Shown piece by piece: positions 57,534 through 63,232 of a stretch of DNA of 64,000 bases. The position numbers and the translations under genes are program-made. Source of the DNA: an uncultured Eubacteriales bacterium. Its GTDB lineage: Bacteria; Bacillota; Clostridia; Oscillospirales; Acutalibacteraceae. The stretch spans positions 1 to 64,000 of the forward strand of contig OMYO01000005.1 in NCBI GenBank assembly GCA_900315285.1, read 5' to 3'. The notes beneath the pieces are model-generated. The model did not search any database. It saw only the letters and a list, made by a program, of their open reading frames with translations, and was not told where the DNA came from. Every line of letters starts with the position of its first letter. Position 1 is the stretch's first letter.

Positions 57534-57646
57534 AATTAATAATATTAGTTGTATAATAGAACCGCGAATTGATATTTTTTTGTCAGCAATTTGACAGAAA
57601 GTATTTCAATTATGACAAGTGAATCAAATTAATGGAGGTTTTCACT

Positions 57647-58660
57647 GTGGTTAAAGTTGCTATCAATGGTTTCGGCCGCATCGGACGTCTCGCATTCAGA
57701 CAGATGTTCAAAGCTGAGGGCTATGACATCGTTGCCATCAACGATCTCACCGACCCGAAAATGCTTGCTCAGCTTCTGAAGTATGATTCCACTCAGGGCA
57801 GATATGCTCTCTGGGACAAGGTCGAGGCAAAAGAGGATTCCATCGTTGTTGACGGCGAGGAAATCAAGATCTACAGCGAGAAGGACGCAAAGGACCTTCC
57901 CTGGGGCGAGCTTGGCGTAGACGTTGTACTTGAGTGCACCGGTTTCTACACCTCTAAGGCTAAGGCTCAGGCTCACATCGACGCTGGTGCCAAGAAGGTC
58001 GTTATCTCCGCTCCTGCCGGCTCTGACCTCAAGACCATCGTCTTCAACACCAACAACGACACCCTTACCCCGGATGACAAGATCATCTCTGCTGCATCCT
58101 GCACCACCAACTGCCTCGCTCCTATGGCTAAGGCTCTCAACGAGTATGCTCCCATCGAGGCTGGCATCATGACCACAGTTCATGCTTATACCGGTGACCA
58201 GATGCTTCTTGACGGCCCGCATCGCAAAGGCAACCTTCGTCGTGCCCGCGCTGCTGCCATCAACATCATCCCGGCTGCTACCGGCGCTGCAAAGGCCATC
58301 GGCCTTGTAGTTCCTGAACTCGCTGGCAAGCTCATCGGCTCCGCTCAGCGTGTTCCGGTTCCGAGTGGTTCCACCACCATCCTTGTCGCCACTGTCAAGG
58401 GCAAAGACGTCACCGTCGAGGGTATCAACGCTGCCATGAAGGCTGCTGCCACTGAGTCCTTCGGCTACAACGAGGACCAGATCGTCTCCTCCGACATCGT
58501 CGGCATGACCTACGGCTCCCTCTTCGACGCCACCCAGACCATGGTCACCAAGATCGACGACGACACCTATCAGGTACAGGTCGTTTCCTGGTACGACAAC
58601 GAGAACTCCTTCACCAGCAACATGGTTAGAACCATCAAATACTTCGCAGAGCTTGGCTAA
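57647..58660 (+). CDS. gap: Glyceraldehyde-3-phosphate dehydrogenase
   Basis: 337 aa from a GTG at 57647; the in-frame ATG at 57632 lies within the GGAGG site and is rejected. [20 protein letters not shown], catalytic Cys in [34 protein letters not shown] and WYDNENSF are all present. NAD-dependent glycolytic enzyme. The codon use is strongly biased, as in highly expressed genes. pgk, tpi and other glycolytic genes are not beside it. Confidence 0.97.
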
Positions 58661-58685
58661 GCGAAATATTGCTTGAAGAGAATAA

Positions 58686-58724
58686 CGCGCTGCAGGCCCG
58701 TAAGGGTTTGCAGCGTGTTTTTTT
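58686..58724 (+). terminator. Terminator of gap
   Basis: CGCGCTGCA pairs with TGCAGCGTG, with an inner GCCC/GGGT stem, followed by TTTTTTT. Confidence 0.9.
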
Positions 58725-58843
58725 ATGTGTTGGGGCGATTGAGCTTTCAAGTGCGGCGGAAAATAAGCGGGGAGAGAGGGAATATCACTGTAACTTGCTG
58801 GGAGCAAGAGAAGGGTGGTAGGAAGCGTTGTTCGGCTGGAAGC

Positions 58844-59200
58844 ATAACTGCAAACCTTCTGAAAATGCCCAAGTGCAGTTAATCATCCTATCTGTCTGGG
58901 CCAAAGTTAACTGCAAACCTTAAAAAATTATCATAGAGCAGTTAGGTGGGCCCGCCCTCGCAATTTCATTTTAACTGCAAACTCCCCGCAGAGAACAAAG
59001 TGCAGTTAACTGGCCCCAATTTTCATCCTCTCGGTTAACTGCAGACTCTCACAATAGAGGAAAGTGCAGTTAATCATCCCTTCGGGTCGGGCCAAAATTA
59101 ACTGCAAATCTTTTGAAATTACCTAAGAGCAGTTAAATTGCCTCGCCCTCACGGTTCCTCCTTAACTGCAAACTTCTCGCAGGAAACGAAATGCAGTTAA
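58844..59200. repeat. Array B: six units of alternating inverted words TTAACTGC / GCAGTTAA
   Basis: Six units, each an 8-nt word, exactly 23 nt, then its reverse complement. Forward words start at 58844, 58907, 58971, 59035, 59098 and 59162; reverse words at 58875, 58938, 59002, 59066, 59129 and 59193. Unit starts are 63, 64, 64, 63 and 64 nt apart, and the gaps between units are 24 or 25 nt. The words are nearly invariant (outer-base changes in units 1 and 2 only). Interiors begin with AAAC or similar and tend to be A-rich; gaps are pyrimidine/GC-rich. Units 1-3 resemble units 4-6, shifted by 191 nt. No cas gene, transposase or reverse transcriptase is nearby. Confidence 0.92.
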
Positions 59201-59250
59201 TCCCCACCTTTTCCCTTCCGAAAACACTACACAACCTCCTACACAAAACA

Positions 59251-59287
59251 AGCACCCTGCCGGCCCTCTCAGGCCACACAGGGTGCT
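59251..59287 (-). terminator. Terminator of the D,D-carboxypeptidase genes
   Basis: AGCACCCTG (59251-59259) pairs with CAGGGTGCT (59279-59287), inner GGCC stem. On the minus strand TTGTTTTGTG follows. Confidence 0.8.
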
Positions 59288-59302
59288 TTCATTCAGATGG
59301 CG

Positions 59303-60859
59303 TTATCTTCGACGGAACGATCCGCCCTTATATTTCCGACTCGAGTTGTTATAGCGCTTGCTAGAGAACTTGGACCAGATTCGGCGGGGCCGGCGCTCAC
59401 TCTCGTCGGCAAGGGGCACAAGGGGCTTTTTTGGCTTGGGCTGCTTGGTCTTCTGACCATAGTCGGTGCTGACAAGGCGGACGGATTTGTGGTCATCCGT
59501 AATGCCGTGCTTAATGCGGACAATGTTGGTGACATCCGCTTTCTTCTTTTCGCCACGTAGATACTTCAGGAGGAAGTAGATGCCGACGCCGAGGACGGCA
59601 AGAATCAGCAGGACCTGAACCACGGTGAAGGAGAAGAACCGCTTAATGCCGTACCCGATGCTGCCGAAGAAGCTCTGATGGATGTCGTCTGCGGCGGCGA
59701 GGTCGACGGTGGATAGGACATCACCGGCATACATGACATAGGCTTTTCCTATGATGTCCCCCTTCTTGATGGGGGCATGGATGTTGTCTGGAAGAGACCC
59801 TTTTATGACCTTGAGCGCAATTCCCGAGGAGTCGATGTTGGCGGGGATGAGCGCCGTGACCTCTCTGGCGGGAACCAGACGTACATGGTCGACGTCCCGG
59901 GAAAGATTGACGGGGACGACAGCGACAACATCCGACGGGTCTGCAACGACTCGGAGTTTGATATTGCTGAAGACCCACTCGTATGCCGCTTTGGTCTCCT
60001 TGAATGCAATGTTTGTGCTCTTGTTGGCGGCATAGGCCTTCGGGCCGGAGAGGATGATGCAGAGATAGGTGTATCCATTCTTGGTGGCGTAGGATGCGAG
60101 GCAGTGGCCAGCGGAGTCCGTGGTGCCGGTCTTAATGCCTCGACAGGGCTTGTAATAGTAAGTGCTGCCGGGCTTCAGCAGGTCGTTGGTGTTCGGAAAC
60201 TTTGTGGCGGGCCGCTGGTTCGTCTTCGGCATTTGGTAGTAGGGCTGTGCGACGATTTGGCGGAACGTGCTGTTCTTGAGACCGTAGCGGATGATCTTGG
60301 AGAGGTCGACGGCGGTGGTGTAGTGGCCGGCGGCGTCGAGTCCGTGGGGGTTGACATAGTGGGTGTTCTTGCAGCCCCGGTCCTTGGCAAACTGGTTCAT
60401 CATGGCGACAAACTTGTCGGTGGTGCCGGCCTCAGCGTGGGCGAGAACGACAGCCGCGTCGTTAGCGCTCTTGACCAGCATGAGGTTCAGGAGTTGGCGA
60501 ATGGTGAAGACCTCGCCGACGACCAGACCTGCCGTGGAACTGTTTGTGCCCTTGAGCTCGTCCAGCATGTCCTGGGTCACCGTGACCTTGCGATTTAGAT
60601 CCTTTTCATGTCCCAGCGTGACAAGTGCTGTGGTAATTTTAGTCAAGGACGCCATGGGAGTCTTCTTATTGGCGTTCTTGCTGAAGATGACCGTGTTCTG
60701 GTCCAGACTGATCATATAGACGATGTCGGACGTGAACTTCATTTCCCGGTTGTACGCGGCATGGCTCGTGAGCGGCAGCATGCTGGTGAGAAGAATGGCT
60801 AGAATGACGGGGATGACCAGGAGAACACGGAGTACCGTATTTCTGTTGCGTGTATGCAT
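59303..60859 (-). CDS. D-alanyl-D-alanine carboxypeptidase with C-terminal membrane anchor and basic tail
   Basis: 518 aa. Signal peptide at about 1-34. S11-family active-site motifs: SLTK (Ser71, Lys74), SAN (Ser131) and KTGT near 246. After the catalytic domain there is a beta-rich region (about 310-400), one membrane helix (VVQVLLILAVLGVGIYFLLKYL) and a cytoplasmic tail of about 75 residues with many Lys/Arg/Ser ending in SSRKYKGGSFRRR. It trims the last D-Ala from peptidoglycan stem peptides. The long basic tail is unusual for PBP5-type enzymes, which carry an amphipathic anchor. Lies 14 bp after the second carboxypeptidase gene, so both form an operon. Confidence 0.88.
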   Translation of the reverse strand: MHTRNRNTVLRVLLVIPVILAILLTSMLPLTSHAAYNREMKFTSDIVYMISLDQNTVIFSKNANKKTPMASLTKITTALVTLGHEKDLNRKVTVTQDMLDELKGTNSSTAGLVVGEVFTIRQLLNLMLVKSANDAAVVLAHAEAGTTDKFVAMMNQFAKDRGCKNTHYVNPHGLDAAGHYTTAVDLSKIIRYGLKNSTFRQIVAQPYYQMPKTNQRPATKFPNTNDLLKPGSTYYYKPCRGIKTGTTDSAGHCLASYATKNGYTYLCIILSGPKAYAANKSTNIAFKETKAAYEWVFSNIKLRVVADPSDVVAVVPVNLSRDVDHVRLVPAREVTALIPANIDSSGIALKVIKGSLPDNIHAPIKKGDIIGKAYVMYAGDVLSTVDLAAADDIHQSFFGSIGYGIKRFFSFTVVQVLLILAVLGVGIYFLLKYLRGEKKKADVTNIVRIKHGITDDHKSVRLVSTDYGQKTKQPKPKKPLVPLADESERRPRRIWSKFSSKRYNNSSRKYKGGSFRRR

Positions 60860-60873
60860 GACAGTGTTCTCCT

Positions 60874-61779
60874 TTACAGGTTATAGTTGAAGGCTGCGTC
60901 GTATGCGAGCTTGGCGTCTTCAAACGGAATGGAGTACTTGTTTGGTTTCTGGGAGGAAGCGCTTCCTCCGAGGGTGATGAGCATGTAGGTGTGGCCGTTG
61001 CGGGTGGCAAAGCTGATGAGGCAGCGACCGGCGGTGCCGGTGTAGCCGGTCTTGCCGCAGGTGACACCCGGATAGTAATACTTGCTGTCGGTGCGGAGCA
61101 GCATATTCGGGTTCATGTACACCGTGGAATCCGTGCGAAGATTCGTGGGCGGCAGCGTATAGGACTGCTGGGATGTGATTTGTCGGAACATACTGTTGTT
61201 GTAGGCCCGCTTTCCAATAATGGCCAAATCTTTTGCCGTAGTGTAGTGGCCGCTGGCCGTGAGGCCGTGGGGATTCATATAATGGGTGTTCGTGCAGCCG
61301 ATGCTGGTCACATATTCATTCATGCGGTCGACAAAGGCCTGAGTGCTGCCGCAGGCGTAGTGGGCCAGAATGATGGCGCACTCGTTGGCGCTCTTGATGA
61401 GCATGATATTCAGGAGCTGGCGGACCGTCAGCTGCTCACCGGCCTTAATTCCAGCAGAGGAGCTCTGCGGGTCTTTGATTTCGTTCAGCTCGTCCTGGGT
61501 GACGGTGACAACGTCATCATAGTTACGGATGTATTGTGTAAGGACCAGGAAGGTGGTCACTTTGGTGACAGAGGCTTGGGCAGCCCGCTTTTCGGCGTTT
61601 TTACTGAATACGATCCTCCCTGTATTGAGGTTCTCCATGTAGACTACATCGGACTGGAATTCCGGGCACCGATCGTCCGCCAGGGCGGGGACCGTCAGGC
61701 AACTGGTCAGGATAACAATGAGTGCCAGAGGGAGGATAAGAAGATTTTGAATGCGTGTTAAATTTCGCCGATTTGGCAT
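60874..61779 (-). CDS. D-alanyl-D-alanine carboxypeptidase, compact secreted form
   Basis: 301 aa from ATG 61779, with AAAGGTGG upstream. Signal peptide LLILPLALIVILTSCLTVPALA; a Cys in it could be a lipobox (LTSC), so secreted or lipid-anchored. Motifs SVTK (Ser70, Lys73), SANE (Ser130) and CGKTGYTG near 241. It lacks the C-terminal domain and anchor of its neighbour. The two catalytic domains are clearly related, pointing to an old tandem duplication. It is expressed first in the operon. Confidence 0.88.
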   Translation of the reverse strand: MPNRRNLTRIQNLLILPLALIVILTSCLTVPALADDRCPEFQSDVVYMENLNTGRIVFSKNAEKRAAQASVTKVTTFLVLTQYIRNYDDVVTVTQDELNEIKDPQSSSAGIKAGEQLTVRQLLNIMLIKSANECAIILAHYACGSTQAFVDRMNEYVTSIGCTNTHYMNPHGLTASGHYTTAKDLAIIGKRAYNNSMFRQITSQQSYTLPPTNLRTDSTVYMNPNMLLRTDSKYYYPGVTCGKTGYTGTAGRCLISFATRNGHTYMLITLGGSASSQKPNKYSIPFEDAKLAYDAAFNYNL

Positions 61780-61901
61780 GGACAACCACCTTTATATTAT
61801 TGTATGATTAACTACATGATTGCAGTAACTTTTATTTTTCTGTTAATTATATAAGTATATCAGAATCTATCCCGGAATCAACAATTGGAGTGTGAAGATA
61901 C

Positions 61902-62662: not shown

Positions 62663-62664
62663 TC

Positions 62665-62934
62665 TGACTACAATTCCATTATTTGAAAATGTAGTCTAAA
62701 TGAAAAAATCCGGTCATCCGAAATTCCCATATTCCCAAATGTAGTCTAAATTTTGGGGCGATTTATCGGCTTTCACAGTCCATCAACTCTAATGAAGGCA
62801 TAATATCCCTTCAAAAGAGGTTAATTTTTATCAAATTTGTATATTTGATTATGACTGCAATTTGGATATTTCAAAATGTGGTCACAAAGAATTTTTGATT
62901 TAGACTACATTTTCAATAATTAAAAATGTAGTCA
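62665..62934. repeat. Array C: alternating inverted words TGACTACA / TGTAGTCA, 25-nt spacing
   Basis: Three clear units of 8 nt, 17 nt, 8 nt: 62665-62672 with 62690-62697; 62852-62859 with 62877-62884; 62902-62909 with 62927-62934. A reverse word at 62740-62747 has lost its partner, although the preceding sequence still resembles unit 1. Neighbouring units start 50 nt apart, so words recur every 25 nt. A 15-nt direct repeat containing the reverse word occurs at 62687 and 62737. In the unit at 62852 the words have changed (TGACTGCA, TGTGGTCA) but can still pair fully through two G-U pairs. Confidence 0.82.
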
Positions 62935-62960
62935 TAATGAGCGCGCCGCCCAAGCATCCA

Positions 62961-63232
62961 CTTATACAATCTCCCCTTTATTTGCATTCTCTGTATTACA
63001 AAAAATTTGATCGAACAAGTGAAATATAATACAGAACCGTCAATACACGAAAAGATGTATGAGGACAATCATACAGGCATCGCTCATCTCAAGAACAATG
63101 TATAAAAAACTCGGCTGTGAGCGATCATTCTCTCATACAATAATCAAGATATTCGCCTCGATGTATTATGATTTCCAATTTGATGACGTTTTTTCTCATA
63201 CAAGATTTTGATTTATAAAAATTTTGTGTGAG
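62961..63232. repeat. Array D: alternating inverted words CTCATACA / TGTATGAG
   Basis: Five units, each 8 nt, 22 or 23 nt, 8 nt: starts 62961, 63026, 63068, 63132 and 63195, with reverse words at 62992, 63056, 63099, 63162 and 63225. Start spacing is 65, 42, 64 and 63 nt. The core ATACA/TGTAT is constant apart from one G-U-compatible change; the outer positions vary. The last unit pairs at all eight positions with one G-U. The word differs by one base from that of array A, more than 34 kb away. Confidence 0.8.

Follow-up and report, generated by a model that had tools for sequence, protein, structure and literature searches.

The array described here lies in a 64,000-nt stretch of DNA (hereafter, the window), where it separates gap from a gene that was named as a D,D-carboxypeptidase in the original prediction. 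The features of the locus, with strand where one applies, are the following.

57632–58660, plus strand: gap (glyceraldehyde-3-phosphate dehydrogenase), left neighbour, 3′ end facing the array
58684–58726, plus strand: intrinsic terminator of gap, directed at the array (16-pair stem, then a T run)
58845–59199, no strand: phased inverted-word array of six units and twelve words, TAACTGC/GCAGTTA
58845–58881, no strand: unit 1 (word, 23 nt, reverse word)
58908–58944, no strand: unit 2
58972–59008, no strand: unit 3
59036–59072, no strand: unit 4
59099–59135, no strand: unit 5
59163–59199, no strand: unit 6
59246–59288, minus strand: intrinsic terminator of the carboxypeptidase gene, directed at the array (AAGCACCCTG/CAGGGTGCTT stem)
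59303–60859, minus strand: D,D-carboxypeptidase-like gene, right neighbour, 3′ end facing the array
63027–63231, no strand: second, degenerate array of the same class, TCATACA/TGTATNA, spacing 29/34–35; a cleaner copy lies at L147:13437–13536

All twelve words that had been predicted between the two genes are present as exact 7-mers, and they alternate strictly. The word itself had been described as an 8-mer, a description that fits ten of the twelve (TTAACTGC/GCAGTTAA) and fails for the other two (ATAACTGC at 58844 and GCAGTTAG at 58938). The predicted intervals of 31 and 32–33 nt between 8-mers hold, and correspond to 30 and 33–34 nt for the 7-mer (start to start: 30, 33, 30, 34, 30, 34, 30, 33, 30, 34, 30). 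In the window as a whole, TAACTGC words number 15, where 4.6 would be expected. Three units together form a higher-order repeat of 191 bp: the two halves of the array, offset by 191, are 74% identical over 165 nt, and the array therefore probably grew by duplicating three units. Rfam covariance models gave no match over the array, and the phage, plasmid, and viral collections contained nothing similar to it. To the right, positions 59303–61785 hold a tandem pair of similar-looking neighbouring D,D-carboxypeptidase-like genes. The degenerate array at 63027–63231 is possibly the one that the original prediction listed as array A.

The array is one of many in its genome. Searched as word, 23 nt, reverse word, 25–28 nt, and word, the TAACTGC pattern returned 107 forward and 112 reverse matches in the 2.08-Mb source genome and none in 39 relatives, including seven congeners. 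When the pattern was loosened slightly, about 85,000 prokaryote genomes, a set from which records of the source genome and its near relatives may be left out, yielded one match, and viral contigs yielded none. That sole database match outside the source genome (L023, in a MAG labelled Ruminococcus) is probably due to chance and lies in coding-like sequence. Within the sequence that was read, which amounts to about 0.92 of the 2.08 Mb of the source genome and ~0.6 Mb of sister genomes, the source genome contains 23 TAACTGC arrays, fragments included; in some cases two of these seem to be halves of one array split by a contig end. Seven contigs (C4, C15, C17, C38, C40, C43, and C63, with loci L025, L027, L030, L036, L038, L041, and L069) start or end within such arrays, which therefore probably break assembly.

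Across these copies, the inner gap is exactly 23 nt in 128 of 130 units and the outer gap 26–27 nt in 112 of 114 cases, while the interiors are nearly random, with a mean identity of 37%. This bears out, genome-wide, the earlier claim that the words and their spacing, rather than the whole sequence, are under constraint. None of the 117 exact inner units lies outside an array, and dinucleotide-Markov shuffled sequence yielded no alternating-word chain in 678 kb. Tandem growth by two to three units shows as repeats within arrays, about 127 and 191 bp long. In one subfamily, a common end unit (AAAATGGAGTAAATGGATGGAAA) and partly common flanks with terminator-like hairpins recur at several loci, a pattern that suggests that whole elements were copied. 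The same recurrence would be expected if the arrays were the internal recognition repeats of a MITE-like, non-autonomous transposon moved by a putative transposase. We consider this improbable, however: the common flanks are partial and confined to that one subfamily, no target-site duplication was seen by eye, and no transposase recurs as a neighbour, with the Y1 type, the one transposase family searched for, absent from the source genome.

A word-independent scan for alternating arrays, applied to the source genome and the sister species, recovered the same design with other words. In the source genome these are TACCTAC (inner/outer intervals 30/33–34), TAGGACC (30–31/44), TACCACC (31/33), TCATACC (30/24), CTCATAC (32/32), and TCATACA (29–30/34). 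Four of the seven sister species, in a comparison that covers few sister arrays, have array words of their own: TACCGCC (31/43), GTCGATG (31/32), and GGACTAC (28/55) in G005, TGCGATT with a period of 73.5 in G007, and CAAAGGC with a period of 74 in both G002 and G004, the one word common to two species. Pattern searches found TAGGACC in 87 + 94 matches in the source genome and in none of 249 other genomes of its family, which comprises at least 150 genera, and TACCTAC in 20 + 21 matches in the source genome and none in the seven sisters; TACCGCC was found only in G005, TGCGATT only in G007, and CAAAGGC in G002 and G004. The search of the genome and its relatives proposed with the original prediction thus recovers the geometry elsewhere in the genus, built from different words and at different loci; the geometry is common to the genus and the words are species-specific, with one word in two species.

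The expectation that the region downstream of gap would be conserved did not hold: in the sister species examined, a terminator but no array is present at the orthologous site. Seven sites with an array-flanking gene are represented in sister-species sequence, and the array is absent at all of them, several showing a terminator. The arrays, therefore, come and go while the design persists. Beyond the genus, about 0.5 Mb of sequence from other genera and families contained no comparable array; the L106 and L191 arrays from other genera were excluded as CRISPR-like, and L087:12516–12807 was excluded because it looks like a coding repeat. The source genome has a Clostridia-type S10 leader.

Gene prediction with a dicodon model made for this analysis places the arrays wholly between genes, with none overlapping a predicted gene. 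Both neighbours are known for 25 arrays: the flanking genes are convergent in 13 cases, tandem in 12, and divergent in none, against 46 convergent, 164 tandem, and 54 divergent pairs around 264 background intergenic regions. An intrinsic terminator directed at the array stands between it and 43 of the 52 gene 3′ ends that face one. Intrinsic terminators are common downstream of genes generally, and this result therefore suggests that the arrays lie outside their neighbours' transcripts, not that they require terminators. The flanks have some recurrent sequence of their own. The word GGGCGAT, present at 58700–58745 of the window and in many array flanks, often follows a terminator and precedes an array, oriented from gene to array; it occurs in 18 flanks against about 5 expected, with three in the opposite orientation, and is shared by more than one family. 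Similar terminator-like hairpins (GGYTGTAYC...GRTACARCC) stand beside unrelated genes in the array flanks at L029, L034, L035, and L054, as if they were dispersed repeats.

The excess of convergent placement could be read as a sign of service to the host. The arrays would then be BIMEs in a broad sense, sites for gyrase or a bending protein that absorb supercoils between convergent genes, and not selfish. Their alternating orientation and their position behind terminators do resemble those of BIMEs, to which IHF and gyrase bind (PMC2817692). But none of the orthologous 3′ ends inspected in sister species has an array, and words that turn over between species are not what a conserved host enzyme of fixed specificity would lead one to expect; we regard such a topological role in the service of the host as unlikely.

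The period of the longer arrays follows the helical repeat. Arrays reach five or more words in ten families, whose periods are 53.7, 63.6, 63.8, 64, 64, 73.5, 74, 74, 74.5, and 83 bp, equivalent to 5.1, 6.05–6.1, 7.0–7.1, and 7.9 turns at 10.5 bp per turn. Clustering as tight as this was seen in none of 20000 random sets, with the reservation that the ten periods may not all be independent of one another. Periods of about five, six, seven, or eight turns in other word families lend support to the proposal, first made for the present locus, that all words share the same helical face. The two-unit families TACCGCA, ATGCAGC, and GTAGTCA, at 50 bp or 4.76 turns, break this integer-turn rule and are regarded as a type separate from the long arrays. 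Elements with TACCGCA or ATGCAGC, each with four words in two units and exactly 50 bp, occur at L028:2974, L040:15957 and 16145, and L054:2990, and further ones at L138:371 and 558 and L039:16670. The TGACTAC/GTAGTCA family (tgactacattt...aaatgtagtca), likewise with a period of 50 bp, occupies 62664–62935 of the window and is also found at L062:15553 and L038:19444.

This regularity bears on whether the repeats could be neutral and satellite-like, with tandem duplication and gene conversion as their means of spread and no protein or other factor bound to them. Tandem duplication of two to three units is evident. Nevertheless, nearly random interiors of almost constant length, words that are about 95% exact, and one period logic shared by unrelated words are hard to obtain without selection, and we think neutrality very improbable indeed. 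The composition of the intervals is also ordered. In the TAACTGC family, inner intervals have an A+T fraction of 0.78 over their central 7 bp and outer intervals one of 0.35, and both kinds run from pyrimidine-rich to purine-rich (composition tests: p about 1e-10 or lower). This dyad-symmetric anatomy would, we infer, be expected if protein contacts were lined up symmetrically along bent DNA.

The word and reverse word of each unit could instead pair as the stem of an RNA or single-stranded DNA hairpin, acting as a fail-safe terminator, an RNA stabiliser, or a substrate for transposition. Native units do fold better than units with shuffled interiors (z −12.6 for TAACTGC, −11.0 for TAGGACC), the whole array folds as plus-strand RNA with z −5.1, a hairpin followed by a T run is frequent within arrays, and there is weak extra pairing beside TACCTAC and TAGGACC words. 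Folding is not weakened, however, when 3′ halves are swapped between units of the same array (z −0.5, −0.8, +1.0), and TAACTGC interiors, when shuffled over all arrays, prove to pair less than expected (z −2 to −3). Since the swaps leave the energy unchanged and symmetric pairing in TAACTGC interiors is at or below expectation, the pyrimidine–purine layout explains the folding, and no compensatory change is seen. Hairpins, moreover, need neither an invariant 23-nt loop nor integer-turn periods, and most arrays stand behind terminators. The six small RNA hairpins that had been offered as an alternative at the present locus fare no better: TAACTGC units lack pair-specific covariation, and the array lies behind the terminators of both neighbours. 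We rate hairpins as an improbable basis for the arrays as a class.

The explanation that we prefer, with a confidence approaching but not reaching even, is that the array at 58845–59199 is one copy of a genome-wide extragenic class that would present phased half-sites to a DNA-binding protein along one face of the DNA. In each element, half-sites of 7–9 bp, every second one inverted, would be lined up for recognition by a sequence-specific protein that is probably dimeric or tetrameric; half-sites about three helical turns apart would place the contacts on one face and allow cooperative binding along the row. Such occupancy is what we infer from the words, their spacing, the integer-turn periods, the interval composition, the location, and the species-specific vocabulary. 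Each word family would have its own protein. The elements may spread as fast-turnover, partly selfish, BIME-like repeats that settle where transcription is undisturbed, and they would grow by tandem duplication of two to three units; any effect on the host, such as anchoring supercoils or loops between convergent genes, would be secondary. Among the genes next to arrays no protein family turns up repeatedly, and no candidate for the binding protein emerged; profile searches of the source genome matched three tyrosine recombinases and one HU, with no evidence linking either to the arrays.

A broader and more tentative proposal is that the arrays represent a bacterial repeat class defined by geometry, in which rows of inverted half-sites at integer turns carry species-specific words, with several word families per species, that may be read by their own fast-evolving proteins, polymerising along one DNA face. 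A brief search of the open-access literature found no such repeat, and the kind is apparently undescribed. If a protein does bind the rows, the genus would offer a natural series of words on one architecture, in which the joint change of specificity and site could be asked about directly, as could the effect of phased protein rows on a bacterial chromosome.

Several known systems share parts of this anatomy. The arrays resemble CRISPR in their regular period of about 64–75 bp and their intergenic position, but CRISPR is rejected: its repeats are direct and nearly identical, with unique spacers in between, whereas array words alternate in orientation, the 23-nt interiors vary, the 23–37 nt are not conserved as repeats, and the intervals on both sides of a word are variable. 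The geometry likewise does not fit integron attC sites, iterons, or coding repeats. Iterons and phased operator arrays do consist of short protein-binding words at helical-turn spacing; the present arrays differ in occurring at dozens of loci per genome, in strict alternation, and without a single replication origin or promoter. VANDAL elements are eukaryotic, and their motif arrays lie inside autonomous transposons. In Arabidopsis, these transposons are reported to have short, fast-changing motif arrays read by co-evolving VANC proteins (PMC5735166). The likeness is one of functional analogy only (short, changing motif arrays in non-coding repeats, each with a recognising protein).

Closest are the REP and BIME elements, to which the original prediction could not match the array. 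BIMEs are regularly spaced REPs in alternating orientation, extragenic, and bound by IHF and gyrase (PMC2817692); REPs are defined by a 20–40-nt palindrome kept by complementary change, a GTAG/CGTC tag, and an associated RAYT (PMC2817692, PMC3733652). The arrays, too, are extragenic, with regularly spaced units in alternating orientation, and the likeness extends to high copy number, several families per genome, and sequences that differ between species (PMC2817692, PMC3733652). In place of a palindrome, however, only a 7–9-nt word is conserved, around free interiors (37% identical) that lack pair-specific covariation. The GTAG/CGTC tag is missing from TAACTGC, TAGGACC, TCATACC, and others (GTAGGTA contains GTAG; the class does not), the spacing, unlike that of BIMEs, is locked to helical turns, and the RAYT profile (Y1_Tnp, PF01797) has no match in the source genome or G005 and one in G007. 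If the arrays are selfish, they would constitute a BIME-like repeat without a RAYT transposase, which bears on how such repeats spread. The earlier failure to match REP/BIME thus stands as regards membership, and BIMEs are still the nearest analogue; because the defining features of REPs are lacking, we do not call the arrays BIMEs, though they may work like them.
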